From assembly GCF_003703975.1 (NCBI RefSeq), contig NZ_QTJY01000002.1:310001-374000 (forward strand): a stretch of 64,000 bases of DNA, in the 5' to 3' direction. The position numbers were made by a program, and so were the translations under genes. The DNA comes from Larkinella soli. GTDB lineage: Bacteria; Bacteroidota; Bacteroidia; Cytophagales; Spirosomataceae. Numbering within the stretch: the first letter of the stretch is position 1; each line of letters opens with the position of its first letter. Below, one piece after another: positions 21,462-49,030 of this stretch. The notes beneath the pieces are model-generated. The model searched no databases. It had not been told where the DNA came from and saw only the letters and a list, made by a program, of their open reading frames with translations.

Positions 21462-21510
21462 GACCACCCCCCGGCCCCCTCCTTAGCAAGGAGGGGGATG
21501 GGGGGTGGTC
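21462..21510. repeat. Palindromic repeat, single hairpin copy
   Basis: A 49-base near-perfect palindrome centred on CCTCCTTAGCAAGGAGG, with outer arms GACCACCCCCC and GGGGGGTGGTC and one GG/AT mismatch block. It begins one base beyond the DUF1501 stop codon (minus strand), upstream of the cytochrome-LRR gene. It belongs to the same family as 22976-23083, 30173-30441, 37541-37659 and 48741-49030. Confidence 0.9.
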
Positions 21511-21511
21511 C

Positions 21512-22969
21512 TCAGGCCAGAATATCCCGCACGACCTTGCCCGACACGTCGGTGAGTCGGTAGCGACGGCCGAGGTGTTTGAACGTCAGCTGCTCGTGAT
21601 TGAGGCCCAGCTGGTGCAGGACGGTCGCCTGGAAATCGTGGACGTGGACCGGGTTGCGGGCGATGTTGTAGCCCAGCTCGTCGGTTTCGCCGTAGACGAT
21701 GCCGGGTTTGATGCCGCCCCCGGCCATCCAGATCGTGAAGCAGCGCGGGTGGTGATCCCGGCCGTAGTTGTCCTTCGTCAGCTTGCCCTGGGTGTAGCTC
21801 GTCCGGCCGAACTCCCCGCCCCAGATCACCAGCGTTTCGTCCAGCAGACCGCGCTGTTTCAGGTCGGTCACCAGCGCGGCCGACGCCTGATCGACGTCCT
21901 TCGCCTGTTTGGCGATTTCGAAAGGCAGGTTGCCATGCTGGTCCCAGCCCTGGTGGTAAAGCTGCACGAAGCGGACGCCGTTTTCCGACAGTTTGCGGGC
22001 CAGCAGGCAGTTGGCGGCATAGGTTCCCGGCACGAGGCAGTCGGGGCCGTAGAGCTTCACAACGTCGTCCGGTTCCTTCGACAGGTCGAGTACTTCCGGC
22101 ACGGCGGTCTGCATCCGGTAGGCCATCTCATACTGTTTCACCTTCGCCATGATTTCAGGGTCGCCGAACTCCTCGTAGGCCATCTCGTTGAGTTTGGCGA
22201 GGTTGTCGAGCATGGCCCGGCGTTCGTGGCGGTCCATGCCCTCGGGGTCGCGGAGATACAATACCGGGTCTTCGCCCTTGCTGAACTGCACGCCCTGATG
22301 CACCGAATCCAGAAAGCCGTTGGACCACAATTTGGAGTAGACGCCCTGCCCGTTGCCGATCCCGCGCGAGAGCAGCACCGTGAAGTTGGGAAGGTTCTTG
22401 TTTTCGTTGCCGAGGCCGTAGCTGAGCCAGGCGCCCATGCTCGGCCGGTTGCCCTGCTGGGAGCCGGTTTGCAGGAAGGTCAGTGCCGGGTCGTGGTTGA
22501 TGGCCTCGGTGTACATCGACCGGATGATGCAGAGATCGTCGACGATCTTCGAGGTATAGGGCATCAGGTCGCTCACCCAGGCCCCCGACTGGCCGTACTG
22601 TTTGAAATCGACGAACGACCCGACCAGCGGAAACGACGACTGGTTGGCCGTCATGCCGGTCAGACGCTGGTTGCCGCGCACCGAGGGCGGCAGTTCCTTG
22701 CCCAGCAGTTCCCGGAGTTTCGGCTTGTAGTCGAACAGTTCCTGCTGCGAGGGCGCGCCGTTCTGAAACAGGTAGATCACCCGCTTGGCTTTCGGCGCAA
22801 AATGGGGAATACCGGGCGTAAACGCTTCGTCCTCACTTCCACCGCCTTTGAACAGGTCCGGAATCAGCAGCGACCCCAGGGCCGCACTGCCCAGCCCCAG
22901 GCTCAGCCGGGACAGAAACCGGCGCCGGTTAAAGTTATAGCCGTGTTCTAAAATCTCTTTTTCCATCAT
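21512..22969 (-). CDS. DUF1501 domain protein, Tat-exported (sulfatase-like fold)
   Basis: About 485 residues from the ATG at 22969 (adjacent ATG at 22966), just inside the palindromic repeat; a longer frame would run into the repeat. The N-terminus has a Tat signal (FNRRRFLSRLSLGLGSAALG). The body is DUF1501, a relative of the alkaline-phosphatase/sulfatase superfamily: RVIYLFQNGAPSQQELFDYK, SMYTEAINHDPALTFLQTGS, VQLYHQGWDQHGNLPFEIAK, and the metal-site-like IWGGEFGRTSYTQGKLTKDN and GRDHHPRCFTIWMAGGGIKP. The function is unknown. DUF1501 genes nearly always sit beside DUF1549/DUF1553 cytochrome genes, as here (23086-25407). A second such pair occurs at 44857-48654. Confidence 0.92.
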   Translation of the reverse strand: MMEKEILEHGYNFNRRRFLSRLSLGLGSAALGSLLIPDLFKGGGSEDEAFTPGIPHFAPKAKRVIYLFQNGAPSQQELFDYKPKLRELLGKELPPSVRGNQRLTGMTANQSSFPLVGSFVDFKQYGQSGAWVSDLMPYTSKIVDDLCIIRSMYTEAINHDPALTFLQTGSQQGNRPSMGAWLSYGLGNENKNLPNFTVLLSRGIGNGQGVYSKLWSNGFLDSVHQGVQFSKGEDPVLYLRDPEGMDRHERRAMLDNLAKLNEMAYEEFGDPEIMAKVKQYEMAYRMQTAVPEVLDLSKEPDDVVKLYGPDCLVPGTYAANCLLARKLSENGVRFVQLYHQGWDQHGNLPFEIAKQAKDVDQASAALVTDLKQRGLLDETLVIWGGEFGRTSYTQGKLTKDNYGRDHHPRCFTIWMAGGGIKPGIVYGETDELGYNIARNPVHVHDFQATVLHQLGLNHEQLTFKHLGRRYRLTDVSGKVVRDILA

Positions 22970-22975
22970 CGTGAG

Positions 22976-23083
22976 GACCACCCCCCGGCCCCCTCCTTTG
23001 TAAGGAGGGGGAGTGTGCGCTGCCATGTTCAGCAATCTGCGAAGCCACCCCCTCCTTGCTAAGGAGGGGGCCGGGGGGTGGTC
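22976..23083. repeat. Composite palindromic repeat (two hairpins in a 108-base unit)
   Basis: Two copies of the CTCCTT-n-AAGGAG hairpin lie in opposite orientation around a shared spacer (GTGCGCTGCC then AGCCACCCCC). The outermost ends, GACCACCCCCCGG and CCGGGGGGTGGTC, also pair, so the entire unit can fold as one large cruciform. It begins six bases after the end of the DUF1553-type gene and fills the space before the DUF1501 start codon. The same spacer recurs at 48826-48932. Confidence 0.9.
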
Positions 23084-23085
23084 TT

Positions 23086-25407
23086 TTAAGTTTTAGTTAT
23101 CGTCTCCTCCAGGTTATAAATCGTCGTCACCACCCGCATCAGGGCGGCCAGCCGCACCCGGTCCACACCGGCCGGAATCGGGTATTCGCCGACGGCCAGC
23201 GTCTTCTCGGCGGCCGGGCGCTTCAGGGTTTTGCGTTCCTGTTCGAAATAACCCGTCAGCACCTCCAGTTCCTTTTCGGTCGGTTTGCGGCAGACGATGA
23301 GCCGGAACGCCTTGGAAATCTTGTCTTTCTCCGAAGTTTTTTCCTCCAGCAGCCGGGCGGCCAGCACCCGCGAGGCTTCCAGCACCGTCGGGTCGTTCAT
23401 CATCACCAGCGCCTGGAGGGGCGTGTTGGTCCGGAGCCGTTTCACTTCACAGAGATCCCGGTTGCTGGCGTCGAAAATGGCCAGCGACGGGGGCGGCACG
23501 GTCCGTTTGATGAGCGTATACATGCCCCGGCGGTAGAGTTTGGAGCCGTGGTCCTGGTTGTAGGTCGACAGCAGGCCGCGCCCGGAGGTGGCGCCCTCCC
23601 ACAGCCCCGCCGGCTGGTAGGGCTTGACGCTCGGGCCGCCGATGGTCCGGTTCAGCAGGCCGCTGCTCGACAGCACCAGGTCCCGGACGATCTCGGCGTG
23701 AACGCGGTACCGTGGGCCGCGGGCCAGCAGGATGTTGTCCGGGTCCGCTTTCAGCTTCGCGGACGTCACCACCGCCGACTGCCGGTAGGTGGCCGAGGTC
23801 ACCATCTTCTTCACCAGCCGCTGGATATCCCAGTCGTGTTCCATAAAGTCGACGGCCAGCCAGTCGAGCAGTTCGGGGTGGGTGGGCAGTTCGCCCTGCA
23901 TTCCGAAATCACCGGAGGTCTTCACGATGCCCCGACCGAAAAATTCCTGCCAGAGAATATTGACGTACACCCGGGCGGTCAGCGGATTTTTACGGTCGAA
24001 GAGCCATTGCGTCAGCCCCAGGCGGTTTTTGGGATAGCTCGGATTGAAGGGCAGGATGGCGGCCGGGGTACCGGGTTCCACCTCGTCGCCGTGGGCATCG
24101 TAGACGCCCCGCTTCAGGATGTAGGTCTTGCGCAGGGTGTCCAGGTCGCCCATCACCGACACGATGAGCCGGGCGGTATCCTGCTTGTTGACGAAGGTGA
24201 GCAGGTTCTTCACATCGTCGTCGCTGATCTCCATGAGCGGCTTTTTGGCGTAGGTCTCCGGCCCGCCGATCACCGATTCGATGCCCACCTCGGATACGTT
24301 GTTGAAGAAGGCGAACAACTGGTAATACTCCTTCTGGGAGAACGGGTCGTACTTATGATCGTGGCAATGGGCGCATTCGAGGGTAATGCCCAGCAGGCCC
24401 TTGCCGAAGGTGTCGTTGCGGTCGGTCACGTAGCTGACCCGGTATTCCTCCGGAATGACCCCGCCCTCTTCGGTAATCTTGTGGTTTCGGTTGAAGCCGG
24501 TCGCCAGCAGCTGCTCCTTCGTGTGGTTGGGCAGCAGGTCGCCCGCCAGCTGCCAGGTCACGAAGTCGTCATAATGCATGTTTTTGTTGAAGGCATGAAT
24601 CACCCAGTCGCGCCAGGGCCATTGGGTGCGGTAACCGTCGTCCTGGTACCCGTGCGAGTCGGCGTAGCGGCCGAGGTCGAGCCAGTGCAGGGCCATTTTT
24701 TCGCCGTAGGCCGGATTTTTAAACAGCTCGTCGACGGCCCTCTCGTAGGCGTCCGGGCGGTTGTCGGCCAGAAACCGCTCCATCATCTTCAGGTTGGGCG
24801 GCAGGCCGGTGAGATCGAGGCTCAGCCGTTTCAGCAGGCGTTCCCGGTCGGCTTCCTCATTGGGGGAAAGTCCTTTCTCTTCCTGCTTTTTCAGGATGAA
24901 ATAATCGATCTCGTTTTTGACCCACTCTTCCTTCTCCACCTTCGGGATCGAAGGCTTTTTAGGGGCGACGAAGGCCCAGTGCTTCTCGTACCGGGCGCCC
25001 TGCCGGATCCATTTCTCGATCAGCCGGATTTCGCGGTCGCTCAGCTTCAGGTTCGAGGCCGGCGGGGGCATCATCTGGGAAGTATCTTTGGACGTAATGC
25101 GCAGAAAGGCTTCCGACAGCTCGGGTTTGCCGGCTACGAGGGCGTGGGCGGTCGGGTGTTCTTTCAGGGTCGCAAACGCACTTTTAGGATCGTCGAGCCG
25201 CAGGCCGGCTTCCCGCTTGTTGGCGTCGGGGCCGTGGCAGACCAGACACTTGTCCGACAGGATGGGCCGAATGTCGAAATTATAGCTGACCACGTCGGGC
25301 AGTTCGCCGTCGGACGTGGCGGCCGCATTTCCCGACGTACAGGCCTCCGAAGCCCAGATCAAACCGACCAAAACCAGCCCGCCCAGATAAACGGTTGACT
25401 TAAGCAT
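23086..25407 (-). CDS. Planctomycete-type cytochrome protein (PSCyt1-DUF1549-DUF1553)
   Basis: A 773-residue exported protein; the ATG at 25407 is preferred over a TTG at 25422. The N-terminus has a hydrophobic signal or anchor (MLKSTVYLGGLVLVGLIWAS). PSCyt1 spans about 40-140 with heme motif CLVCHGPDANKRE and methionine-rich MMPPPASNLKLSDRE. PSCyt2/DUF1549 (about 155-360) has DLTGLPPNLKMMERFLADN, DLGRYADSHGYQDDG and the second motif CAHCHDHKYDPFSQKEYY. PSD1/DUF1553 (about 475-740) has DRKNPLTARVYVNILWQEFF and NTPLQALVMMNDPTVLEASR. These proteins are thought to carry electrons and to associate with DUF1501 partners; no enzyme activity is established. It follows the rbsB-like gene by 15 bases. 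Confidence 0.93.
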   Translation of the reverse strand: MLKSTVYLGGLVLVGLIWASEACTSGNAAATSDGELPDVVSYNFDIRPILSDKCLVCHGPDANKREAGLRLDDPKSAFATLKEHPTAHALVAGKPELSEAFLRITSKDTSQMMPPPASNLKLSDREIRLIEKWIRQGARYEKHWAFVAPKKPSIPKVEKEEWVKNEIDYFILKKQEEKGLSPNEEADRERLLKRLSLDLTGLPPNLKMMERFLADNRPDAYERAVDELFKNPAYGEKMALHWLDLGRYADSHGYQDDGYRTQWPWRDWVIHAFNKNMHYDDFVTWQLAGDLLPNHTKEQLLATGFNRNHKITEEGGVIPEEYRVSYVTDRNDTFGKGLLGITLECAHCHDHKYDPFSQKEYYQLFAFFNNVSEVGIESVIGGPETYAKKPLMEISDDDVKNLLTFVNKQDTARLIVSVMGDLDTLRKTYILKRGVYDAHGDEVEPGTPAAILPFNPSYPKNRLGLTQWLFDRKNPLTARVYVNILWQEFFGRGIVKTSGDFGMQGELPTHPELLDWLAVDFMEHDWDIQRLVKKMVTSATYRQSAVVTSAKLKADPDNILLARGPRYRVHAEIVRDLVLSSSGLLNRTIGGPSVKPYQPAGLWEGATSGRGLLSTYNQDHGSKLYRRGMYTLIKRTVPPPSLAIFDASNRDLCEVKRLRTNTPLQALVMMNDPTVLEASRVLAARLLEEKTSEKDKISKAFRLIVCRKPTEKELEVLTGYFEQERKTLKRPAAEKTLAVGEYPIPAGVDRVRLAALMRVVTTIYNLEETITKT

Positions 25408-25422
25408 ACCTCTACCTTCCAA

Positions 25423-26376
25423 TTATTTCATGAATTTAGACAAATTTTCCTTAGTGACCAACTGAAACGGGATTAAGGTTTGCTGATCGAAAGGCCGTCC
25501 TTTCACGGCTTTGATGGCCGTCTCGATGGCCTGCCCCCCCTGCTGCTCGGCGTTCTGGTACACCGTAGCGTCCAGCGTTCCTTTTTTCACGGCCTGAAGT
25601 GCATCCGGGATGGCGTCGATGCTGACCACCACCACCTTCTCCTTCAGGCCCGCGTCGGTCAGGGCCTTGACGGCCCCCATGCCCATCTCGTCGTTGTGAG
25701 CGAATACCGCATTGATCTGGTTACCGTACGACTGAATCCAGTTTTCCATCAGCGACATCCCTTTGGCGCGGTCCCACTCGGCGGTCTGGTGGGCCAGCAG
25801 CTTCAGGCCCGGATACTGTTTCAGAATTTCCCGCGCGCCCTGTTCGCGTTTGATCTGGGCGGCCTGCCCCATATACCCGTGCATCATCACGACGTTGCCC
25901 TTCCCACCCAGCTTTTCGGCGATGAACTTCATGGCGATGCGGCCCGATTCGACGTCGTCGGAGCCGACGAAGGCGGTCGGTGTGGTGCTGGTTTCGGAGT
26001 TGACGTTGATGATGGGGATTTTGGCGGCCAGGGCCTTCGCTACGGCCGGGGAGCTGGCTTCCACCTCGCAGGGGTTCATGATGATGGCGTCCACTTTTTG
26101 GGCGATGAAGCTCTCGACCTGTTCGATCTGTTTCAAAGCCGACCGCTCGGCATCCACCGTGATCAGTTCGACGCCTGCTTCCTGGGCTTTCTTTTCGATT
26201 TCGTCATGAACATTCACGATGAACTCGTTCTGCATACTCAGCATCGTAACGCCCACCGTGAGCTTCTTCTCCCCGCTTTCCTGGCTTTTAGTATCGGAAC
26301 CGGACTGACCGCAGCCGGCCAGCAGCACACCGAGCGAAAGCAGGGAACCCAGCGTAACCGTATGGAAATACTTCAT
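25423..26376 (-). CDS. Sugar ABC transporter substrate-binding lipoprotein (RbsB-like)
   Basis: A 317-residue periplasmic-binding protein of type I fold (Peripla_BP_4). The lipoprotein signal ends LSLGVLLAGCGQSGSD. The mature protein has the N-lobe start LTVGVTMLSMQNEFIVNVHD, the hinge-region motif IIMNPCEVEASSPAVAKALA, and AVFAHNDEMGMGAVKALTDA, the classic ribose-binding-protein segment with the sugar-contacting asparagine and aspartate. It ends the rbsA-rbsC-rbsB set, 10 bases after the permease gene. It would deliver a pentose or related monosaccharide to the permease. The exact sugar is not predictable. Confidence 0.95.
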   Translation of the reverse strand: MKYFHTVTLGSLLSLGVLLAGCGQSGSDTKSQESGEKKLTVGVTMLSMQNEFIVNVHDEIEKKAQEAGVELITVDAERSALKQIEQVESFIAQKVDAIIMNPCEVEASSPAVAKALAAKIPIINVNSETSTTPTAFVGSDDVESGRIAMKFIAEKLGGKGNVVMMHGYMGQAAQIKREQGAREILKQYPGLKLLAHQTAEWDRAKGMSLMENWIQSYGNQINAVFAHNDEMGMGAVKALTDAGLKEKVVVVSIDAIPDALQAVKKGTLDATVYQNAEQQGGQAIETAIKAVKGRPFDQQTLIPFQLVTKENLSKFMK

Positions 26377-26386
26377 TTCTAAAGGC

Positions 26387-27376
26387 TTAATTACTTTTAT
26401 GATTCAGACTATCGAGAACGACGGCGCCGATGATGATGATTCCCATGACCACTTCCTGGTAGTAGGAGGTCACGTTCATCAGGTCGAGACCGTTGCTGAT
26501 GACGCCGATCAGCAGGGCGCCGATGAGCGTGCCGGTCATGCTGCCGGTGCCGCCGGAGGTGCTGGTGCCGCCGATGATCGCGGCCGCGATGGCATCCAGT
26601 TCAAAACCGACGCCCGCGTTGGGCTGGCCGGTGGTGATGCGGGAGGTCAGCAGGATGCCGGCCAGGGCCGCCAGCCCGCCGGACAGCATATATACCATCA
26701 TCTTCACCCGGCTCAGCCCGATGCCGGACGCCCGGGCCGCCTGCTCGTTTCCGCCCACCGCGTACATGTAGCGGCCGGGAACGGTTTTCCGGAGGACGAC
26801 CGAGCAGAACACGAACATCAGGATCAGGATGAGGATGGGTGTCGGAATGCCCAGCACCTGGCCCCCGCCGATGAAGTTGAATTCGTCCGAAAGGTTGGAA
26901 ACAGGCCGTCCCTTGCTCAGGATCAGGGCCAGACCCCGGCCGATGGTCATCGTGCCGAGCGTGACGATGAAGGGCGGCACCTTGCTGCGGGTAATCACGA
27001 AACCGTTGAAGGCGCCGAGCAGTACCCCGGTCAGCAGGCCCATCGTCACCGGCACGACCACCGGGTAGTCGTCGGGGTGGGCGAAGGTCGCGGCCACCAC
27101 ACCCGTCACAGCAACGATGGAGCCGATGGACAGGTCGATGCCGCCCGAGATGATCACGAACGTGACGCCGAAGGCCAGCAGCGCGTTGATCGACACCTGC
27201 GTGACGACGATCGTCAGGTTGGATAGGGTCAGAAATCGGGGGGTGATGATCGACAGCACAATGCAGACCAGCAGGAATGCCAGCGCGATGCCGTATTTCC
27301 CGAGGCCCCGCGTATGAATCCCGGGCCGGACCGGCGCGTCGGCCTCCCTGACCTCGGTTGAAAAAGGGAACTTCAT
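26387..27376 (-). CDS. Sugar ABC transporter permease (RbsC-like)
   Basis: A 329-residue integral membrane protein with about nine or ten hydrophobic helices and the BPD_transp_2 signature (GGIDLSIGSIVAVTGVVAAT and GGTSTSGGTGSMTGTLIGAL). The segment VKMMVYMLSGGLAALAGIL matches the cytoplasmic coupling region of the RbsC/XylH family. The first 30 residues are hydrophilic and polar and lie before the first helix. It sits 37 bases after the ATPase gene and 10 bases before the binding-protein gene, as expected for one transcription unit. Confidence 0.95.
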   Translation of the reverse strand: MKFPFSTEVREADAPVRPGIHTRGLGKYGIALAFLLVCIVLSIITPRFLTLSNLTIVVTQVSINALLAFGVTFVIISGGIDLSIGSIVAVTGVVAATFAHPDDYPVVVPVTMGLLTGVLLGAFNGFVITRSKVPPFIVTLGTMTIGRGLALILSKGRPVSNLSDEFNFIGGGQVLGIPTPILILILMFVFCSVVLRKTVPGRYMYAVGGNEQAARASGIGLSRVKMMVYMLSGGLAALAGILLTSRITTGQPNAGVGFELDAIAAAIIGGTSTSGGTGSMTGTLIGALLIGVISNGLDLMNVTSYYQEVVMGIIIIGAVVLDSLNHKSN

Positions 27377-28910: not shown

Positions 28911-28929
28911 GGGGTAAGGGAGTAAAGAA

Positions 28930-28976: not shown

Positions 28977-30140
28977 TTAATAGACAGGCCCTTCGACGCC
29001 GGTTTCCTTCCAGCTTTTCGTTTTGGCCGATTCGATGACGGCTTCGCAGACCTTCTGGGTTTCCAGCGCATCCTTGAAGCTCGGGGCGCAGGGTTCGCCG
29101 TTTTCGAGGCTCTTGAGGAAGTCGGCCACCTGGTGGATGAAGCTGTGCTCGTAGCCGATGCCCAGGCCCGGCACCCACCACTTGTTCATGTAGGGCTGAT
29201 CGCCGTCGGTGACGTGGATCGACCGCCAGCCGCGCACGATGGAGTCGTCGGCGTAGTCGAAATATTCGAGCCGGTTCAGGTCGTGGAGGTCCCAGCGGAT
29301 GGAGGCATTTTCGCCGTTGATCTCGAAGGTATACAGGGCTTTATGACCCCGGGCGTAGCGAGTCGACTCGAACAGACCGAGCGAGCCGTTCTCGAAATGG
29401 CAGTGGAAAATACAGGCGTCGTCGATACCGACCGGCTCCACCTTCCCCGTCAGAGCGTGCATCCGTTCCTTCACGAAGGTTTCCGTCACGGCCGATACAT
29501 CGGTAATCACGCCGTTGATCCACATGGCCGTGTCTATGCAGTGGGCCAGCAGGTCACCGGTCACGCCCGAGCCGGCGGCTTCGACGTCCATGCGCCAGGT
29601 GCCGGTTCCGCCCTGCGGCACGTCGGCGTTGATCGTCCAGTCCTGAAGGAAGTTGGCGCGATAATGAAAAATCTTGCCCAGCTTACCGGAATCGACGATC
29701 TGCTTCGCCAGCGTCACGGCCGGCAGACGGCGGTAGTTGTACCACACGGTATTGGCCACCCCGGCTTTGGCGACGGCATCCACCATCGTCTGCGCTTCGG
29801 CCAGATTCCGGGCCAGCGGCTTTTCGACCAGAATCATTTTCCCGGCTTCGGCCGCGGCAATGGCGATCTCGGCGTGGGTGTCGTTCGGCGTACAGATGTC
29901 GACGGCGTCGATGTCGTCGCGGGCGATGACGGCTTTCCAGTCGGTTTCGACGGATTGGTAGCCCCACTGATCCGCGAAAGCCTGCACCTTCTCCCGGTTC
30001 CGGGAACAGACGGCCTGAAGAACGGGTGTGTACTGAAGGTCAGGAAAGAAGTTGGGAACGCGGTTATAACCATTCGAGTGGGTACGGCCCATAAAGCCGG
30101 TGCCGATGAGTCCGATTCTCAGTTGTTTTTTGTCTGCCAT
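28977..30140 (-). CDS. Gfo/Idh/MocA-family sugar dehydrogenase, cytosolic
   Basis: A 387-residue protein from the ATG at 30140; a longer frame would run into the palindromic repeat. Unlike the other members here it has no signal peptide. Motifs: Rossmann [57 protein letters not shown] with the catalytic-region lysine-proline, and [13 protein letters not shown] with the C-terminal histidine-aspartate pair. It resembles inositol- or ketosugar-dehydrogenase-like proteins paired with TIM-barrel isomerases. The isomerase gene is directly upstream in the same direction (30453-31484), with only the repeat between. It is likely to oxidise or reduce a sugar after import, using NAD(P). Confidence 0.9.
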
Positions 30141-30172: not shown

Positions 30173-30441
30173 TTACCCCCACCCCAGCCCCCTAAGAGGT
30201 TGTTTTGGCAAGGGAAAAGGTGCTTTCCCGACCGGTCTGCCCTCCCGCAGACCACCCCCCGGCCGGACCGCCGGTCCGACCCCTCCTGTTTTAGGAGGGG
30301 CTGGCTCCGCAGGACTGAAAGGGGCAGCGCCCCCGGCCCCCTCCTTAGCAAGGAGGGGGCCGGGGGGTGGTCGGGCGTCCCTCGTTCTTCAGGATGAACG
30401 CTTCCCCAAACCACCTCTTAGGGGGCCGGGGGGTAGGGTAA
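30173..30441. repeat. Long nested palindromic repeat (about 269 bases)
   Basis: Three layers of inverted repeats. Outer arms (about 30173-30208 and 30405-30441) share CCCCCTAAGAGG and its complement, with TTACCC/GGGTAA ends. A middle layer pairs GACCACCCCCCGG (30250 region) with CCGGGGGGTGGTC (30360-30372). The core includes CCTCCTTAGCAAGGAGG and a second hairpin CCCCTCCTGTTTTAGGAGGGG (31 bases apart). TCCCTCGTTCTTCAGGATGA (30378-30397) recurs exactly in the copy at 48937-48956. It lies between the TIM-barrel stop (30453) and the dehydrogenase start (30140). Open frames running through it are repeat artefacts. Confidence 0.9.
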
Positions 30442-30452: not shown

Positions 30453-31484
30453 TTACGCCTTCCAGCCGTGGGCTTCGCGGACCTTGATCATCGTCGCCAG
30501 AATGTCGTTCCAGGTCTGCTGGTTGCCCATGACCGCGTTCGGGAACATACAGCCGTCCCAGCAGATGTGCTGGAAGGCCTTCGTCAGGTTGCCGTTTTCG
30601 TCGCGCAGCCAGTAGCCGGCATCGTGAACGATATTGAGCTTGCCGTTGGGGTCGAGGGCCTGGCAGTGGCGGCCGGTTTTGTCGTGGGAGCCGGAGCCGA
30701 ACACCGTGCCGTCGTTCTGGGCCACGTGGAAGTCGATGGTGTAGGGGCGCAGGGCGGCCGTGATGGTTTTCAGGCCGTCTTCCAGCGGTGCGCGGTCGTC
30801 CCAATCATAGTTTTCGGGCAGAATCCGGTCTTCGGGGCGATTATAGCCGAGCAGATACAGCAGCGTGTGCGCCATGTCGGCCTGGAAACCCATGTTCGGG
30901 CGGTCGACGGCCTCCAGCGTGGCGACCATCGTTTTCCAGCTGTGCATCCCGCCCCAGCAGATTTCTCCCTCGGCGGCCAGCCGCTCGCCGTAATCCGCGG
31001 CTACGTCGCAGGCTTCCTGGAAGGTCTGGGCGATGAGTTTGCTGTTGCCGACCGGGTCCACGGCCCAGTCCTGGGGCGAGCTGGCCGAGTCGATCCGGAC
31101 GATGCCGCTCGGGCGAACGCCCAGATCGCGCAGGACCTTGCCGATGTGGCACGACTTCCGGACCATTTCGACGAAATTGGCCCGGTCTTCCTTGCTGCCC
31201 ATGGCCGGGCCGCCCCAGATGGGAGCCACCAGCGAACCGATATTCAGGTTGTAACCGGCCACCTTGTCGGCCAGCCGCTTGATGTCGTCGTCCGACATTT
31301 CGATGCTCAGGTGGGGGTCCAGCAGACCGATGTCCACGCCGTCGAATTTCACCCCGTCCACCTCGGCGGCAGCGGTCATCTCCAGCATGGTGTCGAACGG
31401 AATAACGGGTTCGGAGTCAGGGCCTTTTCCCACAATGCCCGGCCAGGTGGCATTGTGAAGCTTGGGGAAATTATTGTCGTTCAT
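30453..31484 (-). CDS. Sugar phosphate isomerase/epimerase-like TIM-barrel protein
   Basis: A 343-residue cytosolic protein from the ATG at 31484, which gives [20 protein letters not shown]. It matches the xylose-isomerase-like TIM barrel (AP endonuclease 2 superfamily). Probable metal ligands are the glutamate in [17 protein letters not shown], the aspartate and histidine in [14 protein letters not shown], and the histidine of [10 protein letters not shown]. These proteins epimerise or isomerise ketosugars, including 3-keto sugars, and pair with Gfo/Idh dehydrogenases, as in this locus. The cupin/PMI-like gene is 44 bases upstream. A palindromic repeat follows the stop codon. Confidence 0.9.
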
Positions 31485-33820: not shown

Positions 33821-33891
33821 ACCCCTGAATCCCCTGAAGGGGACTTTGAGCCGACTTTCCGGATAAAGTCCCCTTCAGGGGATTCAGGGGT
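33821..33891. repeat. Perfect 27-bp inverted repeat with 17-base loop
   Basis: Arms 33821-33847 and 33865-33891 are exact reverse complements. Each arm itself contains a CCCCTGAAGGGG palindrome. The structure fills most of the gap between the DUF1080 stop codon (33901) and the DUF4432 start (33803). It differs in sequence from the CCTCCTT-type repeats but has the same placement. There is no T run, so it is more likely an mRNA-stabilising or REP-like element than a terminator. Confidence 0.9.
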
Positions 33892-33900: not shown

Positions 33901-34689
33901 TCAGTTCTGTTTCAGCAACAGGTTACGATACTGCACCTTCATGGGAGGGCCGACGTGTACCTGGACGCCCAGCAGCCCTTTTTTCGCACCGTTGACGGTA
34001 TCTTCATCGGTTACGTCGCTCATCAGAACGCCGTTGACGTAGTGCTGCAGGCGGTTGCCTTTTACGATCAGGTGGAACGAGTTCCAGTCCGCTTTCTTTA
34101 TAAAAGCCTTCAGCGAGTCGGAGCTACCCAGCGAACCGACAACTTCCATCCCCGTCCAGGCATTCCGGCTCACCTTCGACCGAATAGCTTCGGGCGTATT
34201 CGGCCCGTCGTACGGTTTGATGACGGTCTTCTGCCCGCGGTAGGCCAGCGTGGTCCGCTTGCGTTCCTCGTAGTTCTGGCCCGTGTAGCGCACCTGTCCG
34301 TCGATGTCGGCCTGGTAGCCCCGGAGGGCGAAGGGGATGTCGGTCAGCTGGTCGCTGCGGTAGTTGATGCCCGAGTTGCCGGCTTCGGTGATGTTGAACT
34401 CGCCTTTCAGCTCGAAATCCCCCGGTTCTCCGCCCCGCCAGATGATGAACGAGTTGGTTTTCAGCAGCGTGGTGGGGGTAATTTCCCCCACCAGATTGCC
34501 GTCTTCCACCCGCCAGTAGGTGGGATCACCGTCCCAGCCCTTCAGCGACTTCCCATCGAATATTTTGACGAAACCTTCCTTCTTTTCCTTCTTCGTCTGT
34601 GCCAGAACGGTCGTTCCGAAACCGCCGGTCAGGAGGGCGGCCAGCAGAACTCCGGCCCGGACAGACTGTAAACCCATATGCTTCAGCAT
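33901..34689 (-). CDS. DUF1080 protein (3-keto-disaccharide hydrolase family), exported
   Basis: A 262-residue protein. The signal peptide (LQSVRAGVLLAALLTGGFGT) ends at VLAQ. The DUF1080 jelly-roll domain (about 40-260) is complete: FVKIFDGKSLKGWDGDPTYW, VEDGNLVGEITPTTLLKTNS, GEFNITEAGNSGINYRSDQL, and the terminal GLLGVQVHVGPPMKVQYRNL. The family is named for hydrolysis of 3-keto-disaccharides, a reaction that follows oxidation at C3 by dehydrogenases. That fits the surrounding Gfo/Idh and cytochrome genes. It lies 29 bases downstream of the cytochrome gene and upstream of the 27-bp inverted repeat. Its substrate here is inferred, not shown. Confidence 0.9.
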   Translation of the reverse strand: MLKHMGLQSVRAGVLLAALLTGGFGTTVLAQTKKEKKEGFVKIFDGKSLKGWDGDPTYWRVEDGNLVGEITPTTLLKTNSFIIWRGGEPGDFELKGEFNITEAGNSGINYRSDQLTDIPFALRGYQADIDGQVRYTGQNYEERKRTTLAYRGQKTVIKPYDGPNTPEAIRSKVSRNAWTGMEVVGSLGSSDSLKAFIKKADWNSFHLIVKGNRLQHYVNGVLMSDVTDEDTVNGAKKGLLGVQVHVGPPMKVQYRNLLLKQN

Positions 34690-37540: not shown

Positions 37541-37659
37541 AACCACCCCCCAACCCCCTCCTTGGTAAGGAGGGGGTGTTTCACCACCAATTCCCTTCGG
37601 GGAGTTGAAATCGAAGGGATAAAGCCCCCTCCTTACCAAGGAGGGGGTTGGGGGCGGTT
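37541..37659. repeat. Composite palindromic repeat between SusD and cytochrome gene
   Basis: Two CTCCTTggtAAGGAG hairpins in opposite orientation, with outer arms AACCACCCCCCAACCCCCTC and GAGGGGGTTGGGGGCGGTT that also pair. The spacer is different from that of the copies at 22976 and 48826. The right end runs into the SusD stop codon, leaving no space between gene and repeat. Confidence 0.9.
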
Positions 37660-39167
37660 TAAAAATACGGCGTCAGTGCGGCTTCGACGGCCGGGAGGGG
37701 ATAATAATCCTCCAGGTTCGTGAAGGCGTTCGGCGGGGGCACGGCCCCTTTCGGGAAATAATACAGCAGCGGGTTGGCTTTGATCTCGTTGCCGTAGGCG
37801 GTGATCACTTCCTTTACGCGGCCGGTCCGCACCAGATCATACCAGCGCTTGTTCTCGAAAGCCAGTTCGACGCGCCGTTCACGCCAGATGGCCTGCCGCA
37901 TGTCGGCCTGAGAAGCGGCCGTCGAAGCGCCCAGACCGGCCCGCGTCCGTACCTGATTCAGATAGGGAGCGGCTTCGGCGGTTTTGCCCTGCTCGTTGAG
38001 CGCTTCGGCCAGGAACAGCAGCACCTCGGCGTAGCGGTAGACCGGCCAGTTCTGGCCGGTGTTGTTGTGCAGCGCGTGCGTCTTGGCGTACTTCTTGATG
38101 TACGGATACGTCTTGTCGTCGCGCAGGCTCTGGCTGAGCGTCACGGTTCCGATGGAAATGTCCTTCCGCTTGTCGCCGGCCTCGTAGGCCCGGATCAGGT
38201 TCGGGGTCGGCACGTTGTTGTTCTCGCCCGAGAGCGGCTGCGGGTTCGAGGTACCGGTGATCGGACCCAGTTCAGCGGCCGTGATGGGCGTCGGAACAAA
38301 CCGGTAGATATGGTTCCCGTTATACCCGGCGGAGCCTTCCTGATACTGGATTTCGAAGATCGACTCGATGTTGTTCTTGTTCCCGGTCGTGGTCGAGACG
38401 ACGTCGGCGTAGTCGGGCATCAGCTTGTAGGTATCGTTCGTGACGATGTCCTTCAGCACGGTTTCGGCCTGCGCCCATTTCTTCTGCACGATGTACAGGT
38501 TTGCCAGGGCGGTTTTGGCCGCTCCGGACGTCGCCCGGCCCGCATCCTGCTTCGCCTTGGCGGGCAGCAGCTTGGCGGCTTCCGTCAGGTCCTTCTCGAT
38601 CTGGGCATACAGCTGCTCGGCGGTGGCCAGTTCGGCGGCTGCGTCCGTCCGGCCCGTGACCGGCGTCAGGTGCAGCGGAGCCTTCCCGAAAATGCGGGCC
38701 AGCTCGAAGTAGGAGTACCCTCTCAGAAACAGCGCCTGACCTTTCACGTTGTTCTTGATGTCGGCCGTGGAGAAGTTGATCGGATCGATCAGGGCCAGGA
38801 TCTGGTTCGTCCGGGCGATGATCTGGTAGTGCAGGCGGTAGAATACCAGCACGTTGTCGTTCGCCGTGACGCCATTGGCCGACGGTACGGCAAAGTCGGC
38901 GACGTTCTCGGTATTTTCCACGGCCCCGAACAGCACGTTCCGGGCGTAGTAGGTATTGTCCGAGTGCATCTCCTGCAGGACCCAGGCCCGCTCGTTGAAG
39001 ATCTGCCGCAGGGGCACGTAGGCGGCATTGACCGCCTGCAGGAAGTCGGATTCCTTGGTAAAGAAGGTGGCCGAACTGAGGTTCGTCTCCGGAACGACGG
39101 TCAGGAAGTCCTTACAGCTGGAGAGCGAGAGGGCAATCAGACCGGCTAATATGAATTTTGCTTTCAT
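37659..39167 (-). CDS. SusD/RagB-family outer-membrane nutrient-binding lipoprotein (set 1)
   Basis: A 502-residue lipoprotein from the ATG at 39167, opening MKAKFILAGLIALSLSSCKD, with cysteine at the lipobox. The SusD domains are clear: TPR-like helical core (IDPINFSTADIKNNVKGQAL, FLRGYSYFELARIFGKAPL), AKTALANLYIVQKKWAQAE, and the C-terminal SusD domain with RYAEVLLFLAEALNEQGKT and WRERRVELAFENKRWYDLVR. It would sit as a lid on the adjoining SusC and bind the glycan outside the cell. It is the third gene from the sigma-FecR pair, 66 bases after SusC. The palindromic repeat overlaps its stop codon. Confidence 0.95.
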   Translation of the reverse strand: MKAKFILAGLIALSLSSCKDFLTVVPETNLSSATFFTKESDFLQAVNAAYVPLRQIFNERAWVLQEMHSDNTYYARNVLFGAVENTENVADFAVPSANGVTANDNVLVFYRLHYQIIARTNQILALIDPINFSTADIKNNVKGQALFLRGYSYFELARIFGKAPLHLTPVTGRTDAAAELATAEQLYAQIEKDLTEAAKLLPAKAKQDAGRATSGAAKTALANLYIVQKKWAQAETVLKDIVTNDTYKLMPDYADVVSTTTGNKNNIESIFEIQYQEGSAGYNGNHIYRFVPTPITAAELGPITGTSNPQPLSGENNNVPTPNLIRAYEAGDKRKDISIGTVTLSQSLRDDKTYPYIKKYAKTHALHNNTGQNWPVYRYAEVLLFLAEALNEQGKTAEAAPYLNQVRTRAGLGASTAASQADMRQAIWRERRVELAFENKRWYDLVRTGRVKEVITAYGNEIKANPLLYYFPKGAVPPPNAFTNLEDYYPLPAVEAALTPYF

Positions 39168-43920: not shown

Positions 43921-44004
43921 GAAGAAGTAGAACTATTTACCCTTTCATGAATTGAGTTCCGGTTCTCAGAGGAATCTAACCAAAAAATCTACAATTTTTT
44001 ACAC

Positions 44005-44646
44005 TTATTTTTCTATGAAGGAAAGAAGGGGAAGACTGATCAGAAACAGGACCGAAACGCTGCTCATGAACCACAGATTCCTGAGTTCTTTCAGCGTACG
44101 GGAAAACAGGTTATAGACGCCCTGGCGGCTGATGTTCATGACTTCAGCAATCTGGTCACAGTCCATACCTTCGTAAAAATGCAGAAAGACGATTTCGCGC
44201 TGACGCCGGGAGAGCGCCCCGATCACCTGGTCGAGACGGGCGCTGGTGATCTGGCGGATTTCATCCTGAATGAGGAACGACTCGATGGTGGCCTCCTCGC
44301 CGGCCAGGTCCGTATCGAACGGCAGTTCGTCCACTTCCGACAGACGCTGCGAGCTCAGCCGGGCTTTATAAAGTTTGTTGCGATAGGCACCGAACAGATA
44401 GGCTTTAATGTTGGCCGGCATCGAGATCACTTCCCGGCGGGTCCACAGATCCAGGAACAATTCCTGCAGGATATCCCTCAGCAGCTCCCGGTTCCGATTC
44501 ACTTTGAGGCCGTAGTTCAGCAAAGCCGGATAATATTGCTCGGCGATTTTTCCCAGGGCGGTAGCGTCCCCCATCCGGAAGCGCAGCCACAGCTCTTCGC
44601 TGCCGGTTTTTACAGGCTGACCTTCAACAAGCTCTTTCGATTGCAT
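44005..44646 (-). CDS. FecI-type ECF sigma factor (set 1)
   Basis: A 213-residue ECF sigma factor. Region 2 (about 30-100) contains YYPALLNYGLKVNRNRELLR and DILQELFLDLWTRREVI, the core-binding helix. Region 4 (about 140-195) contains LSRRQREIVFLHFYEGMDCD and IAEVMNISRQGVYNLFSRTL, the -35-recognition helix. The C-terminus ends in a hydrophobic stretch (FMSSVSVLFLISLPLLSFIE), a possible membrane-binding tail found in some Bacteroidetes sigma factors. It would direct transcription of the SusCD block when released by its FecR. The upstream 210 bases hold the terminator of the preceding DUF1501 operon. Confidence 0.94.
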   Translation of the reverse strand: MQSKELVEGQPVKTGSEELWLRFRMGDATALGKIAEQYYPALLNYGLKVNRNRELLRDILQELFLDLWTRREVISMPANIKAYLFGAYRNKLYKARLSSQRLSEVDELPFDTDLAGEEATIESFLIQDEIRQITSARLDQVIGALSRRQREIVFLHFYEGMDCDQIAEVMNISRQGVYNLFSRTLKELRNLWFMSSVSVLFLISLPLLSFIEK

Positions 44647-44796
44647 TGAAGCTTCTTAGTTGGTAAACTACAAGTATTCACTGAAAAACTTCAATTAAAC
44701 AGCATTTCCGCTCGGGACCATCCTTTACTCTACTGCCTTCCCCCAAAAAAGGTGATTTTCTGAAATAAACTTTTCCGACCACCCCGTCCGGCCATG

Positions 44797-44841
44797 AAAA
44801 AACGGCGCAACCCGGGAGAAAGGCCCGATTTGCGCCGTTTT
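44797..44841 (-). terminator. Strong intrinsic terminator of the second DUF1501 operon
   Basis: Ten-bp or longer stem, AACGGCGCAA (44801-44810) with TTGCGCCGTT (44830-44839), extended by A/T pairs, with a partly paired loop. On the minus strand it is followed by a run of six T. It lies 15 bases beyond the DUF1501 stop, so the locus upstream and set 1 are separate transcription units. Confidence 0.85.
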
Positions 44842-44856
44842 GCGGGGTGCGGTTCT

Positions 44857-46290
44857 TCAGGCCAGCAGTTCCATGACGGCCTGTCCCTTCCCGTCCGGTG
44901 TGGTATAGAAGGGCCGTTCCTCGATCTCGTAGTGGGTGTCGCCCGCAATGCCCAGGGCGTGATAGATCGTCTGGTGGATTCCTTCGATTTTAATGGGTTT
45001 CTCGATGGTTTTGCAGGGCCGCTCGTCGGCAGTTTTGCCGTAGACGAACCCGCGCTTGATGCCCCCGCCGAACATCAGGATGGAGCAGCCGTCGGTGAAA
45101 TGCCGGTGCATGCCGTAAAATTTCAGATCGGACAGGATGTCGGGCTGCCGGACCTGTTCGAGAACCTTGGCGTCGGGGCGGCCTTCCACCATCATGTCGC
45201 GGCTGAACTCACTGGCCAGGATGATGAGGGTCCGGTCGAGGTGGCCGGTCTTGTCGAGGTCCTTGATGAGCTGGGCCACGGGGCCGTCGATCATCTTCTT
45301 CATGCCCTCCAGGCGGGTATGGCCGTTTTCGTGCGTATCCCAGCCCATGAACGGCTCGTATTCGGTCGTCACGCTGATGAAGCGGGCGCCCTGCTCCGTC
45401 AGCCGGCGGGCCAGCAGACAGCCCAGCCCGAACCGGCCGGTATTGTAGATGTCGAAGGTTTCCTTCGGCTCGGTGCTCAGGTCGAAGGCTTTCGCTTCGG
45501 GCGAGTTGAGCAGCATATAGGCCTGCTCCATCGACCGCTTCAGCGATTCCTTCTGGTAATCGCTGCCGAACTCCCCGAACGGCCCTTTGCTGATCAGTTC
45601 GTTGTACAGCTGGTTCCGGCGCTCGAACCGTTTGGCATCCATCCCGACCGGCGGCCGGACGCTCTCCAGCCCCTGCGTGGGGTCCGGGATAAAGAACGGG
45701 CCGAATTCGTTGCCGAGGAAACCGGCGGTATGGAAGGCCTTCAGTTCCTCCCCCTCCCCGACCGTAAACCGCTGTCCGATGTCGATGAAGGCCGGGATCA
45801 CCGGATTTTTAGGGCCGAGTTCCTTGGCGATCCAGGCCCCGATGTGGGGAGCGGCCACCGTCTGCGGGGGTTCGTAACAGGTATGCCAGTGGTACTGATG
45901 CCGGGAGTGCAGGATATGGCCCAGGTCGGCGGCCACGTAGGACCGGATGAGCGTTCCCTTGTCCATCACTTTTCCGATGGACTCCAGCCCTTCGGAGAAG
46001 TGAATGCCGTCCAGAACGGTCGGCACCGACTTGAACGTACTCAGCACCCGGTTTCCTTCCATGCCCTTCTCGAAGGGTGTATACCGTTTGGGGTCGAAGG
46101 TTTCGGTGTGGGCCATGCCGCCGGCCATCCAGAGCAGGATCACCGTATCGGCCGAACCGTCGGTCTGGCCCGGTTTTTTGGAACGGCAGCCGGAAACCAG
46201 GCTCGTCATCGGCGCCCCGGCCGCGAGGGCCGCCAGGGTGGCCGCGCTGGTCCGCTGCAGAAATTCACGTCGATTCCAGGTCGTTTTCAT
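44857..46290 (-). CDS. DUF1501 domain protein, Tat-type export signal (set 2)
   Basis: A 477-residue DUF1501 member and the second copy in the window. The N-terminus has a Tat-like signal (TWNRREFLQRTSAATLAALA). Family motifs: TVILLWMAGGMAHTETFDPK, YVAADLGHILHSRHQYHWHT with the histidine-rich metal-like site, EYEPFMGWDTHENGHTRLEG, IILASEFSRDMMVEGRPDAK, and GMHRHFTDGCSILMFGGGIK. The C-terminal PFYTTPDGKGQAVMELLA is typical for the family. It lies 3 bases after the DUF1553-type cytochrome gene and is cotranscribed with it. The two DUF1501 proteins differ widely, so this is not a recent duplication. Confidence 0.92.
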   Translation of the reverse strand: MKTTWNRREFLQRTSAATLAALAAGAPMTSLVSGCRSKKPGQTDGSADTVILLWMAGGMAHTETFDPKRYTPFEKGMEGNRVLSTFKSVPTVLDGIHFSEGLESIGKVMDKGTLIRSYVAADLGHILHSRHQYHWHTCYEPPQTVAAPHIGAWIAKELGPKNPVIPAFIDIGQRFTVGEGEELKAFHTAGFLGNEFGPFFIPDPTQGLESVRPPVGMDAKRFERRNQLYNELISKGPFGEFGSDYQKESLKRSMEQAYMLLNSPEAKAFDLSTEPKETFDIYNTGRFGLGCLLARRLTEQGARFISVTTEYEPFMGWDTHENGHTRLEGMKKMIDGPVAQLIKDLDKTGHLDRTLIILASEFSRDMMVEGRPDAKVLEQVRQPDILSDLKFYGMHRHFTDGCSILMFGGGIKRGFVYGKTADERPCKTIEKPIKIEGIHQTIYHALGIAGDTHYEIEERPFYTTPDGKGQAVMELLA

Positions 46291-46293
46291 TGG

Positions 46294-48654
46294 CTACAAA
46301 ATCAATTGAAATTCAGGGTGTAACGTAATGGCCCATACCAGGTCCTGGATACCGGCCACCGTCGGTTTTTTACCGAGGGCCTGCTCGGCCAGCGCCAGTT
46401 CTTTCGGCTGGGGGTCGCGGTTCAGCGCCTTGCGGTAGAGTTCCCTCACCAGAAGGTCGGTCGAGGGGTATTTCTGCCGCCACATTTCCGCCCCCCGTTT
46501 CAGGGACTCGTTGAATTTGGTTCCGTTGGTCAGTTCCAGCGCCTGAAGCAGGTTGGCCTGCGACGCCCGGCCGGTGCTGACGGTTTCGCGGTTCGGGCGG
46601 CCGAGAGCCGTCAGGAACGGGTCGTTTTTCACCAGCGCGGCCCGCGGGAAGGGAATCTCCTTTTTAATTTCTTCCGGCAGTCGCTTCATCACCAGGGCCG
46701 AGTCGGCATAGAGCGGGTTGAAGGCTTTGCTGACGGCATCGGCAAACTGCTCGGCGGTCAGGCGCCGGCGCACCATGCCCTGGAAGACGAAATCCTGGGC
46801 GGTGATCAGTCCTGCATCCCGGATTCCGACCGAGGGCAGCTGATAGGTTTTGGAGGTCAGGATGTTGTACACCAGCTTTTTGATGTCGTAGCCGTTGGCC
46901 GTAAAATCGGAGGCCAGGTAGTCGAGCAGGTCCTGGCTCCAGGGTACGTTGTCCATCGCATCGACGGGTTCGACGATCCCGCGGCCCATCAGCTGCGCCC
47001 AGACCCGGTTGGCGAGGGTCCGGTAGAGCCGCCCGTCTTTCGGCTGGGTCAGGAAGTCGGCCAGCTGGCGAAGCCGTTCTTCGGTCGGGGCCTTGCCGCT
47101 GATCGACCCCAGTTGGCTGAACAGGATTTTGGTATCGGCCATCTTGCCGGTCGGCTTGTCGCAGCGGTGAATTTCCAGCGTACTGTCGGCAAAGATGTTG
47201 GCGAAGGCATAGGCGTCGGCCAGTTTCCAGTCGCTGATGAAGCTGTCGTGGCAGGACGCACACTTGAGGTTCAGACCCAGAAATACCTGTGCCACGTTCT
47301 GGGCGGCCTGCATTTCGGTGCGCTGGCTGGCGTTGATGGTTCCCCGCCATTTGATGCCCTTGACGAACCCTTCCGATTCCTTGTTCGGACTGATGAGTTC
47401 CTTCACGAAGAGGTTGTAGGGCTTATTGGTTTTCAGCGCATTATACAGCCACTTCGTAATATCGAACCGGCCGCCGGTAATGTAACCGGTTCCGGAGTAG
47501 TCGTTTCGGAGGGCGTCGTTCCAGAAGGTCAGCCAGTGCTGGGCATAGTCTTCGTCCCGGTTCAGGAGGCTCTGCACGAGCACTTCCCGCTTGTCGGGCC
47601 GGTTGTCGGCCACGAACGCCTGCACCTCCTCGGGCGAAGGCAGCAGACCGATGACGTCCAGATACACCCGGCGAATGTAGATACGGTCGTCGACGGGCGA
47701 CTTCCAGCTTTGTTTCTGCTGCTGAAAATAGACGTTGACGAACCGGTCGACCGGGTTGGTCAGGTGGGCGGGGCCGGCCGGAATTTGGGGCGTCCGCGGT
47801 TCGAGGGCAGCCACGCGGTACACGCTTTTCTCGGCACCGGCAGGCCAGGGCGCGCCCTGTTTGATCCAGAACGTCAGCAGTTCGATTTCTTTTTCGTTGA
47901 GCCGCTTGCCTTTGGTGGGCATGGCTTCCTTATGACCGGCCGGAAGGGTGATCCGCCGGATGAGTTCACTTTTATCGGGATTTCCGGCCACGATGATGGG
48001 GCCGTGTTTACCGCCTTTGAAAATGAGTTCTTTCTTGTCTAAACGCAGTTCGCCCTTCGTTTTGGAGGCACTGTGGCAGTTGTAGCAGTTGTGGGCCATG
48101 ATGGACCGCACCTGGAGGGTCAGTTCCTCGATCTGCTGCGGAGCCAGCGGCTGGTTGCTTACGTTGACGAACGCGAAGGTCGGATTTTCCGGCCCGGGCG
48201 TCTCGGGCGCTTTATCGAAGGGAAGAACGCTGGTCAGGTAATCGTCGCCGTGGGTCAGCAAAGCCCCATAATGGCCGGCCACCGTTACCCCGCCCACGGT
48301 CAGGAACAACAGGCTGCGGTAGAGCGGCAGGCGGTTTGCCCGCAGGGCCAGCACGGTTGCGATGGCGAGCGCCATGGTGGCCAGGCCGGTCCACTGGTGG
48401 ACGGAAACGGTTTCACCCCCGTATTCTTCCTGGTTGATCAGAACCAGACCGAGAGCGGCCGCCACGACCGAGCTGATGGCCCCGATCCAGACCAGGGCCG
48501 AAATTCCCGCCTTCAGGTCGGCGGACTTCCGAATACGGCCGAACAATTCCAAAACCAGGGCCACCACCAGCAGACTGACCGGAAAATGGACGATCAGCGG
48601 GTGCAGCCGGCCGAGAAACTGCCAGAGCCAAAAGGATTCAGTTAAGACGGTCAC
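46294..48654 (-). CDS. DUF2231-PSCyt1-DUF1549-DUF1553 cytochrome fusion (set 2)
   Basis: A 786-residue protein that adds a DUF2231-like four-helix membrane domain (about 1-150, FLGRLHPLIVHFPVSLLVVA) to the Planctomycete-type cytochrome architecture. PSCyt1 has heme motif CYNCHSASKTKGEL (about 195). DUF1549 has DVIGLLPSPEEVQAFVADNR and a second motif CASCHDSFISDWKL. DUF1553 has RLYRTLANRVWAQLMGRGIV, TSKTYQLPSVGIRDAGLI and ATGRAS-like GRPNRETVSTGRASQANLLQ. The start is a GTG at 48654: no ATG lies near enough to include the membrane helix. It follows the palindromic repeat and SusD set 2. The N-terminal domain matches that of the cytochrome-LRR fusion at 19225. Confidence 0.9.
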   Translation of the reverse strand: MTVLTESFWLWQFLGRLHPLIVHFPVSLLVVALVLELFGRIRKSADLKAGISALVWIGAISSVVAAALGLVLINQEEYGGETVSVHQWTGLATMALAIATVLALRANRLPLYRSLLFLTVGGVTVAGHYGALLTHGDDYLTSVLPFDKAPETPGPENPTFAFVNVSNQPLAPQQIEELTLQVRSIMAHNCYNCHSASKTKGELRLDKKELIFKGGKHGPIIVAGNPDKSELIRRITLPAGHKEAMPTKGKRLNEKEIELLTFWIKQGAPWPAGAEKSVYRVAALEPRTPQIPAGPAHLTNPVDRFVNVYFQQQKQSWKSPVDDRIYIRRVYLDVIGLLPSPEEVQAFVADNRPDKREVLVQSLLNRDEDYAQHWLTFWNDALRNDYSGTGYITGGRFDITKWLYNALKTNKPYNLFVKELISPNKESEGFVKGIKWRGTINASQRTEMQAAQNVAQVFLGLNLKCASCHDSFISDWKLADAYAFANIFADSTLEIHRCDKPTGKMADTKILFSQLGSISGKAPTEERLRQLADFLTQPKDGRLYRTLANRVWAQLMGRGIVEPVDAMDNVPWSQDLLDYLASDFTANGYDIKKLVYNILTSKTYQLPSVGIRDAGLITAQDFVFQGMVRRRLTAEQFADAVSKAFNPLYADSALVMKRLPEEIKKEIPFPRAALVKNDPFLTALGRPNRETVSTGRASQANLLQALELTNGTKFNESLKRGAEMWRQKYPSTDLLVRELYRKALNRDPQPKELALAEQALGKKPTVAGIQDLVWAITLHPEFQLIL

Positions 48655-48740
48655 TTGCTTTTAAGAGGTTGTATATCTGTGAAAATTACTAAAAAATATT
48701 CAAAAGACTCTCCTGTTCTCTGCTGGAACACCCCGGCCCT

Positions 48741-49030
48741 TTTTACCCCCAACCGCACCGGCGGCCCGGCCCCTAGAGGTGGTTTGGGGAAGGGTTTTGC
48801 CCTTCCGGGCGTTTTGGCATCCTGTTGACCACCCCCCGGCCCCCTCCTTAGCAAGGAGGGGGAGAGTGCGCTGCCCTTTTTCAGTCCTGCAGAGCCACCC
48901 CCTCCTTAGCAAGGAGGGGGCTGGGGGTGGTCTGGCGTCCCTCGTTCTTCAGGATGAACCCTTCCCCAAACATCCTCATAGAGGCTGAGGGTAAAACCCC
49001 CTCCTTGCCAAGGAGGGGCAGGGGGTGGTT
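48741..49030. repeat. Long nested palindromic repeat (about 290 bases)
   Basis: The largest copy of the palindrome family. Outer arms pair TTTTACCCCC/CTAGAGGTGGTTTGGGGAAGGG (48741-48796 region) with CCCTTCCCCAAACATCCTC and GAGGGTAAAA (48959-48996). The middle unit 48826-48932 has the same layout and spacer (GTGCGCTGCC) as the copy at 22976. TCCCTCGTTCTTCAGGATGA at 48937-48956 recurs in 30378-30397. A further half-copy hairpin (CCTCCTTGCCAAGGAGG) at 48999-49015 reaches to within three bases of the SusD stop codon. This is a 378-base intergenic stretch otherwise without a gene. Confidence 0.9.

Follow-up and report, generated by a model that had tools for sequence, protein, structure and literature searches.

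The repeat family described here, which in Larkinella soli is strongly biased toward the 3′ ends of genes, is best read as a non-autonomous, REPIN-like mobile palindrome that multiplied in one Larkinella lineage and has been kept as an RNA hairpin next to stop codons. From sequence comparison we give this reading a probability of about one half. Its spread would have depended on a transposase acting in trans, probably neither of the two Y1 genes found in the genome. Copies landing in genes or upstream regions would mostly have been lost, and those directly behind a stop would have survived, since a stable hairpin in the RNA is possible at that position. In polycistronic mRNAs the element would, at certain junctions and most of all after SusD, provide the upstream cistron with its 3′ stem-loop, standing in for a native or other repeat-borne one. 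As most copies lack the T tract that intrinsic termination requires, the hairpin would most likely act by blocking 3′ exonucleases or by affecting the ribosome as it terminates.

The family was first seen in a 64-kb stretch of the L. soli genome (the window). All five copies given in a preliminary description of that stretch proved to be real and to belong to one repeat when their coordinates and hairpin arms were re-examined; two of them are composites, two plain doublets and the fifth a single hairpin (Table 1). With at most one mismatch, GACCACCCCCC matches the window 12 times, whereas 100 shuffles gave 2.9 matches on average (sd 1.8, maximum 8). The reported closeness to stop codons holds for four copies, at 0-3 nt, but the fifth (E3) lies 21 nt from its stop and not 12. 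Window positions 33821-33891 are taken up by another perfect palindrome doublet, of unrelated sequence (ACCCCTGAATCCCCTGAAGGGGACTTT and its complement), whose edge is 9 nt past the stop codon of the gene spanning 33901-34689, and a TTTACGG-type palindrome is found at that junction in most congeners.

Table 1. Repeat copies in the window and the genes that precede them.
Feature	Position	Strand	Remarks
E1, single 49-bp hairpin	21462-21510		1 nt from DUF1501 stop (21512-21514)
E2, doublet	22976-23083	-	2 nt from PSD1/DUF1553 stop (23086); few nt before likely DUF1501 ATG
E3, composite, outer arms CCCCAGCCCCCTAAGAGG.. / ..CCTCTTAGGGGGCCGGGG round doublet	30182-30431		Outer arm 21 nt from stop at 30453
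Doublet within E3, extra CCGGACCGCCGGTCCG hairpin in one arm	30250-30372	+	Model match 30267-30371
E4, doublet	37541-37659	-	Touches stop of first SusD gene (37659)
E5, composite, fills most of gap behind second SusD gene	48741-49029		3 nt from stop (49033)
Doublet within E5	48827-48932	-	
Extra half element within E5, adjoining SusD stop	48997-49029		
DUF1501 gene (PF07394), upstream cistron of E1	21512-22969	-	Pfam
PSD1/PSCyt2 (DUF1553/DUF1549) gene, upstream cistron of E2	23086-25293	-	Pfam
Xylose-isomerase-like TIM barrel gene, upstream cistron of E3	30453-31484	-	Pfam
First SusD gene, upstream cistron of E4	37659-39167	-	Pfam
Second SusD gene, upstream cistron of E5	49033-50535	-	Pfam

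The unit of the family is a double hairpin of 103 bp, in which ACCACCCCCC-RG-CCCCCTCCTTnnnAAGGAGGGGG is followed by a core and a mirror arm. In order, the doublet runs from ACCACCCCCCRG through the hairpin CCCCCTCCTTnnnAAGGAGGGGG and a core of approximately TGGCTCCGCAG..TGAA..TGGCAGCGCACTC to the second hairpin and the mirror arm; the model derived from an alignment of 19 copies has 103 positions with a mean column identity of 87%. The loop of the core palindrome is 3 nt long, and the core pattern with a 4-nt loop had no match in the window. Among the exact cores of the L. soli loci, 147 of 153 carry a purine-N-pyrimidine loop, mostly GCT/AGC and ACC/GGT, which may be a recognition mark for the mobiliser. 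Terminal inverted repeats are present in the 19-copy alignment, where the element ends in ACC..GGT (ACC CCC in one copy). Inspected by eye, most members of a listing of 100 elements share these ends, the remainder being truncated, shifted or variant matches; neither GTAG nor CGTC ends were read there, and no target duplication was seen, the feature that would mark a MITE together with terminal inverted repeats shared with an autonomous IS. Covariation in the stem is almost lacking, most base pairs being invariant. When one long stem was weighed against two hairpins, the loops of a doublet were complementary in 22 of 56 cases (15% expected) and identical in 16 of 56 (16% expected). A search of Rfam at the gathering score gave no match between window positions 21000 and 49500.

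Large nested palindromes, as which the copies had originally been described, were dropped as a general rule because the complementarity of the flanks hardly exceeds that of swapped flanks (mean score 9.8 vs. 8.8; scores of at least 20 in 7 vs. 3%; n = 98); genuine nesting is thus confined to certain sites. The stem of the exact cores, CCTCCTT/AAGGAGG, is identical to the anti-Shine-Dalgarno and Shine-Dalgarno heptamers. On both strands of the L. soli loci, 315 of 454 AAGGAGG sites fall inside elements. Of 366 genes, only five have AGGAG or GGAGG upstream, compared with 11 in a control taken inside genes, and from this rarity the genome seemingly makes no use of such sites.

With respect to distribution, the earlier view of a lineage-specific, REP-like family was upheld by the contrast with the congeners and by the strong 3′-end bias. 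The L. soli genome (6.92 Mb in 82 contigs) holds 184 exact core palindromes and no match to a control pattern read backwards, and none of eight Larkinella congeners holds a single exact core. Only five of 59 genomes searched contain the exact core, namely L. soli itself and G047, G030, G034 and G054, with eight, four, three and one, respectively. A broader model, R1, was applied to 222 genomes from the family to which L. soli belongs and matched 57 of them, L. soli included, no more than 18 candidates being scored in each genome, which makes the counts lower bounds; among the congeners only G003 and G007 had matches, and these were weak. The doublet model has at least 150 matches in L. soli, on both strands. 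Thirteen of the 222 genomes contain a sister form whose loops read AAAAC/GTTTT; it is present in L. soli (15 + 14) and reaches several copies in G221 (32 + 30), G235 (23 + 22), G185 (11 + 16) and G238 (12 + 14). Variant arrangements were also seen. In G047, a member of the same order, loci L056 and L058 contain a doublet of reversed polarity, with CCTCCTT hairpins outside and AACCACCCC arms inside, and in G235 the doublet lies inside a larger repeated palindrome with TTTATTGATTTGA arms (L217, that is, G235:C38 1-200; also L173-L176). When locus L167 was sought in other genomes, the matches listed contained only repeat matches.

The placement of the family was analyzed with 100 distinct elements from 87 L. 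soli sources, gene ends being taken from a purpose-made hexamer gene caller. The sample divides into 58 elements in tandem gaps, 26 in convergent and nine in divergent gaps, three inside genes and four at edges; the 280 element-free gaps of at least 21 bp in the same loci comprise 173 tandem, 30 convergent and 77 divergent ones. A bias toward 3′ ends, for which the preliminary description had asked, was clearly borne out: 84 of the 93 gap-placed elements have a 3′ neighbor, 36 of these 84 at -1 to 4 nt from its stop. Within tandem gaps, 28 of 58 elements lie no more than 4 nt from the upstream stop, where 5.2 are expected under uniform and 9.3 under start-protected placement, and none of 20,000 simulations reached the observed count (elements that overlap the gene, in one case by 27 nt, were given a distance of 0). 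The median distance from tandem elements to the next start is 125.5 nt, and the elements lie in the same orientation as the genes in 34 cases and in the opposite one in 24.

Not all of these cases are independent, since eight tandem elements stand behind homologous gene ends that appear permease-like by eye where translated; after clustering of homologous upstream gene ends, 22.3 of 49 were still within 4 nt of the stop. Six elements (L103, L104, L105, L106, L118 and L149) lie 1 nt from the stop behind homologous gene 3′ ends (permease-like by eye in L104 and L105), and at these six loci the element may have been duplicated along with its gene. In G221, G185 and G235 the pattern is weaker, with three of 20 doublets within 3 nt of a stop and four of 20 flagged inside ORFs. 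Five of the 26 elements between convergent genes lie no more than 6 nt from both stops; this was dropped as a special signal, since lengths of 0-13 bp are also common among convergent gaps that lack an element. Where the stop was more than 10 nt away, the spacer contained repeated DNA in all 62 cases, and the edge of that repeat fell at -3 to 10 nt of the stop in 11 of the 62, the others entering the gene or ending further off. Gene cassettes between close copies were also considered, and the genes in the six loci viewed were ordinary by eye.

Copies inside genes, which the preliminary description had set against placement at gene ends, do occur, albeit rarely: three of the 100 elements lie within called genes, all three in an open frame and two of them in genes recognized by Pfam. 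In a penicillin-binding protein gene (Pfam Transgly, Transpeptidase, BiPBP_C) the element is in frame and replaces a variable stretch of ~22 residues of seven congeners, and in lpxK, where it is likewise in frame, the Pfam match runs across it. The third gene, at L115, had no Pfam match. Outside L. soli, a hydantoinase B gene of G185 carries an element in frame.

All eight congeners are syntenic with the window region, and the same junctions could therefore be compared. The E1 junction measures 21-42 bp in the congeners, against which E1 looks like an insertion, and no inverted repeat with arms of 6 was present in the four congener spacers tested (of eight), from which it follows that a hairpin is not needed there. 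E2 likewise looks like an insertion: five of eight congeners have a gap of 2-3 bp, and the other three have an unrelated doublet of the CACGGACT..AGTCCGTG type. At the E3 junction all eight have an inverted repeat unlike E3; by eye these repeats fall into four or more sequence types. Behind the first SusD gene (E4), seven of eight congeners could be aligned, each with a hairpin unlike E4 shortly behind the stop; six of these hairpins have arms of at least 12 and lie 5-9 nt from the stop, the seventh was read by eye, and L194 and L199 share one hairpin. Behind the second SusD gene, where L. soli has the composite E5, a conserved stem-loop of ~63 nt starting 28-29 nt behind the stop is common to six of eight congeners and is replaced by a repeat palindrome of the TTTACGGTTTTTGG type in the other two. 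More generally, 41 of 57 congener 3′ gaps of 45-450 bp contain an inverted repeat with arms of at least 12, at a median of 7 nt from the stop, as opposed to 0-3 of 57 at a median of 65 nt in five rounds of dinucleotide shuffling of the same gaps. Hairpins behind stops are thus common in the genus, and the CCTCCTT element is one supplier among several.

The congener stem-loops at these junctions would favor a role in RNA at some sites, those behind SusD being the best argument. Several observations count against the reading given at the outset, namely the lack of a visible target duplication, the E1 junction with no hairpin in the congener spacers tested, the distance of 28-29 nt between stop and congener stem-loop at the E5 junction, the weaker stop bias and the copies flagged inside ORFs in G221, G185 and G235, the paralogous stop-adjacent cases, the dependence of gene ends on a purpose-made caller and the near-absence of covariation. 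A wider proposal, which we put forward tentatively and judge less likely than not, is that in Larkinella the stem-loops following susD and similar genes can be exchanged for one another, such that unrelated mobile palindromes inserted right after stop codons may replace conserved native ones and selection would act on position and fold while the sequence turns over between species.

The family could instead be a purely selfish palindrome that prefers gene ends as targets or is purged elsewhere, with the congener palindromes only marking shared hot spots. We lean against this explanation but consider it a serious possibility. The jump in copy number in one lineage speaks for it, as do the hairpin-free E1 junction, the nearly empty E2 junction in five of eight congeners and the occurrence of other palindrome families at the same junctions. 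It fits less well with the SusD genes, behind which every alignable congener has a stem-loop or palindrome even though its sequence differs between several of them, and a model in which only starts are protected still expects just 9.3 of 58 elements within 4 nt of the stop.

If the hairpins do act in RNA, the direction of the effect must also be considered. SusD is regarded as highly expressed, and the preliminary description proposed that the repeats stabilize such upstream cistrons. The hairpin might rather stall the terminating ribosome and so lower expression of the upstream gene, which would agree with the 36 of 84 elements at -1 to 4 nt from a stop. Work on E. coli also speaks for such damping, as it reports that ribosomes can stall and translation can drop when a REP is closer than 16 nt to the stop codon (Liang 2015, as cited in PMC12306157). 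Six congeners have hairpins at 5-9 nt after the first SusD stop, which tells against it given the expression ascribed to SusD, and we judge it unlikely. As many L. soli copies lie within this zone of less than 16 nt, "stabilizes" may have the wrong sign. Intrinsic terminators copied to gene ends would likewise place GC-rich hairpins behind stop codons, and 26 of the 93 placed elements are in convergent gaps. A run of four T within 12 nt after the element is so rare, however (six of 58 tandem cases), that intrinsic termination becomes improbable. Of 26 terminator-like calls between window positions 30000 and 49500, where 24.3 were expected by chance, one fell in an element, and it was antisense to the genes. 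On these two counts a role as bidirectional terminators was rejected.

The source of mobility is a separate question. In a classical REPIN system, a Y1 transposase of the genome (RAYT) would move the doublet in trans, an explanation that the REPIN-like build and two Y1_Tnp matches in the L. soli genome would allow. Both matches lie on other contigs (C16 and C6) than the window (C2), in accord with the earlier remark that the window has no transposase of the TnpA-REP type. However, the CCTCCT palindrome is absent from 13-kb stretches around both genes. The C6 gene, of 152 aa, has AACCGTT-type palindromes beside it, and its active-site motif reads YIRNQEEHH; by eye this resembles subclass 1.2 in the tables of PMC6006769 more than it does the YI..NP motifs listed for class 2. 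The C16 gene, of 129 aa, has an unbroken Y1 match and seems, by eye, to be shortened by a stop directly behind it. Among 55 Y1 loci from several genomes, a part of all Y1 matches listed and mostly covering 1.5 kb on each side, five have AACCGTT-type palindromes, four TAGGGC-type and one CCTCCT-type. The latter, in G235, offers the one case in favor, with the palindrome directly upstream of a 155-aa Y1 gene, although there it lies within a larger palindrome. G238 has its 12 + 14 sister palindromes and no Y1 match, and G162 likewise has matches to the R1 model and no Y1 match. The link to a RAYT that had been suggested was accordingly not found, and mobilization of this kind, rejected as the main reading on the Y1 neighborhoods and on G238, seems very unlikely to us.

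As far as the literature surveyed goes, REP biology rests mainly on Proteobacteria with RAYTs. The papers listed in searches on palindromes in Bacteroidetes, on Larkinella and Spirosoma and on SusD hairpins, mostly from outside the subscription literature, included none recognizable as dealing with the Larkinella family or with a series of junctions with a displaced conserved stem-loop. The family adds a case from Bacteroidota with the same stop-adjacent placement, without a GTAG/CGTC tag and without an evident RAYT. Furthermore, the congeners supply versions of the same junctions that are empty, carry a native hairpin or carry another palindrome. Such a natural series could separate the parasite, stabilizer and damper readings of stop-adjacent palindromes, and could show if conserved stem-loops behind SusD are open to replacement by a mobile element.

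Compared with known systems, the family shares with REPs the character of a short, high-copy, extragenic palindrome with 3′ bias (184 cores; 93 of 100 elements in gaps). The sections of PMC3733652 consulted already describe, from five phyla including Bacteroidetes, REPs that lie near the 3′ end of the upstream gene as well as CGTC REPs that lack a transposase. Like the GTAG and CGTC REPs treated there, the Larkinella element lies between tandem and convergent genes, mostly near the upstream 3′ end, with some copies intragenic, and like the CGTC REPs it is without an evident dedicated transposase; it differs in its ACC/GGT ends and its 103-bp unit. E. coli REPs near stops are similar in having a hairpin no more than 15 nt from the stop (Liang 2015, via PMC12306157), while the Larkinella sequence is a different one. 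Rickettsia palindromic elements, which PMC3733652 mentions, are also palindromes and are read through in proteins, compared with only three of 100 intragenic elements in Larkinella. A further likeness is to REPINs, in which, in the excerpts of PMC3116915 used here, two inverted palindromes of ~100 bp multiply as one mostly extragenic unit. The Larkinella doublet has that build, but it has no GTAG head, and no cognate RAYT flanked by the same palindrome was found in the 13-kb stretches around the two L. soli Y1 genes; one of the 55 Y1 loci carries the palindrome, and G238 has no Y1 match. We class the family outside both the GTAG/CGTC REPs and the RAYT-bound REPINs.
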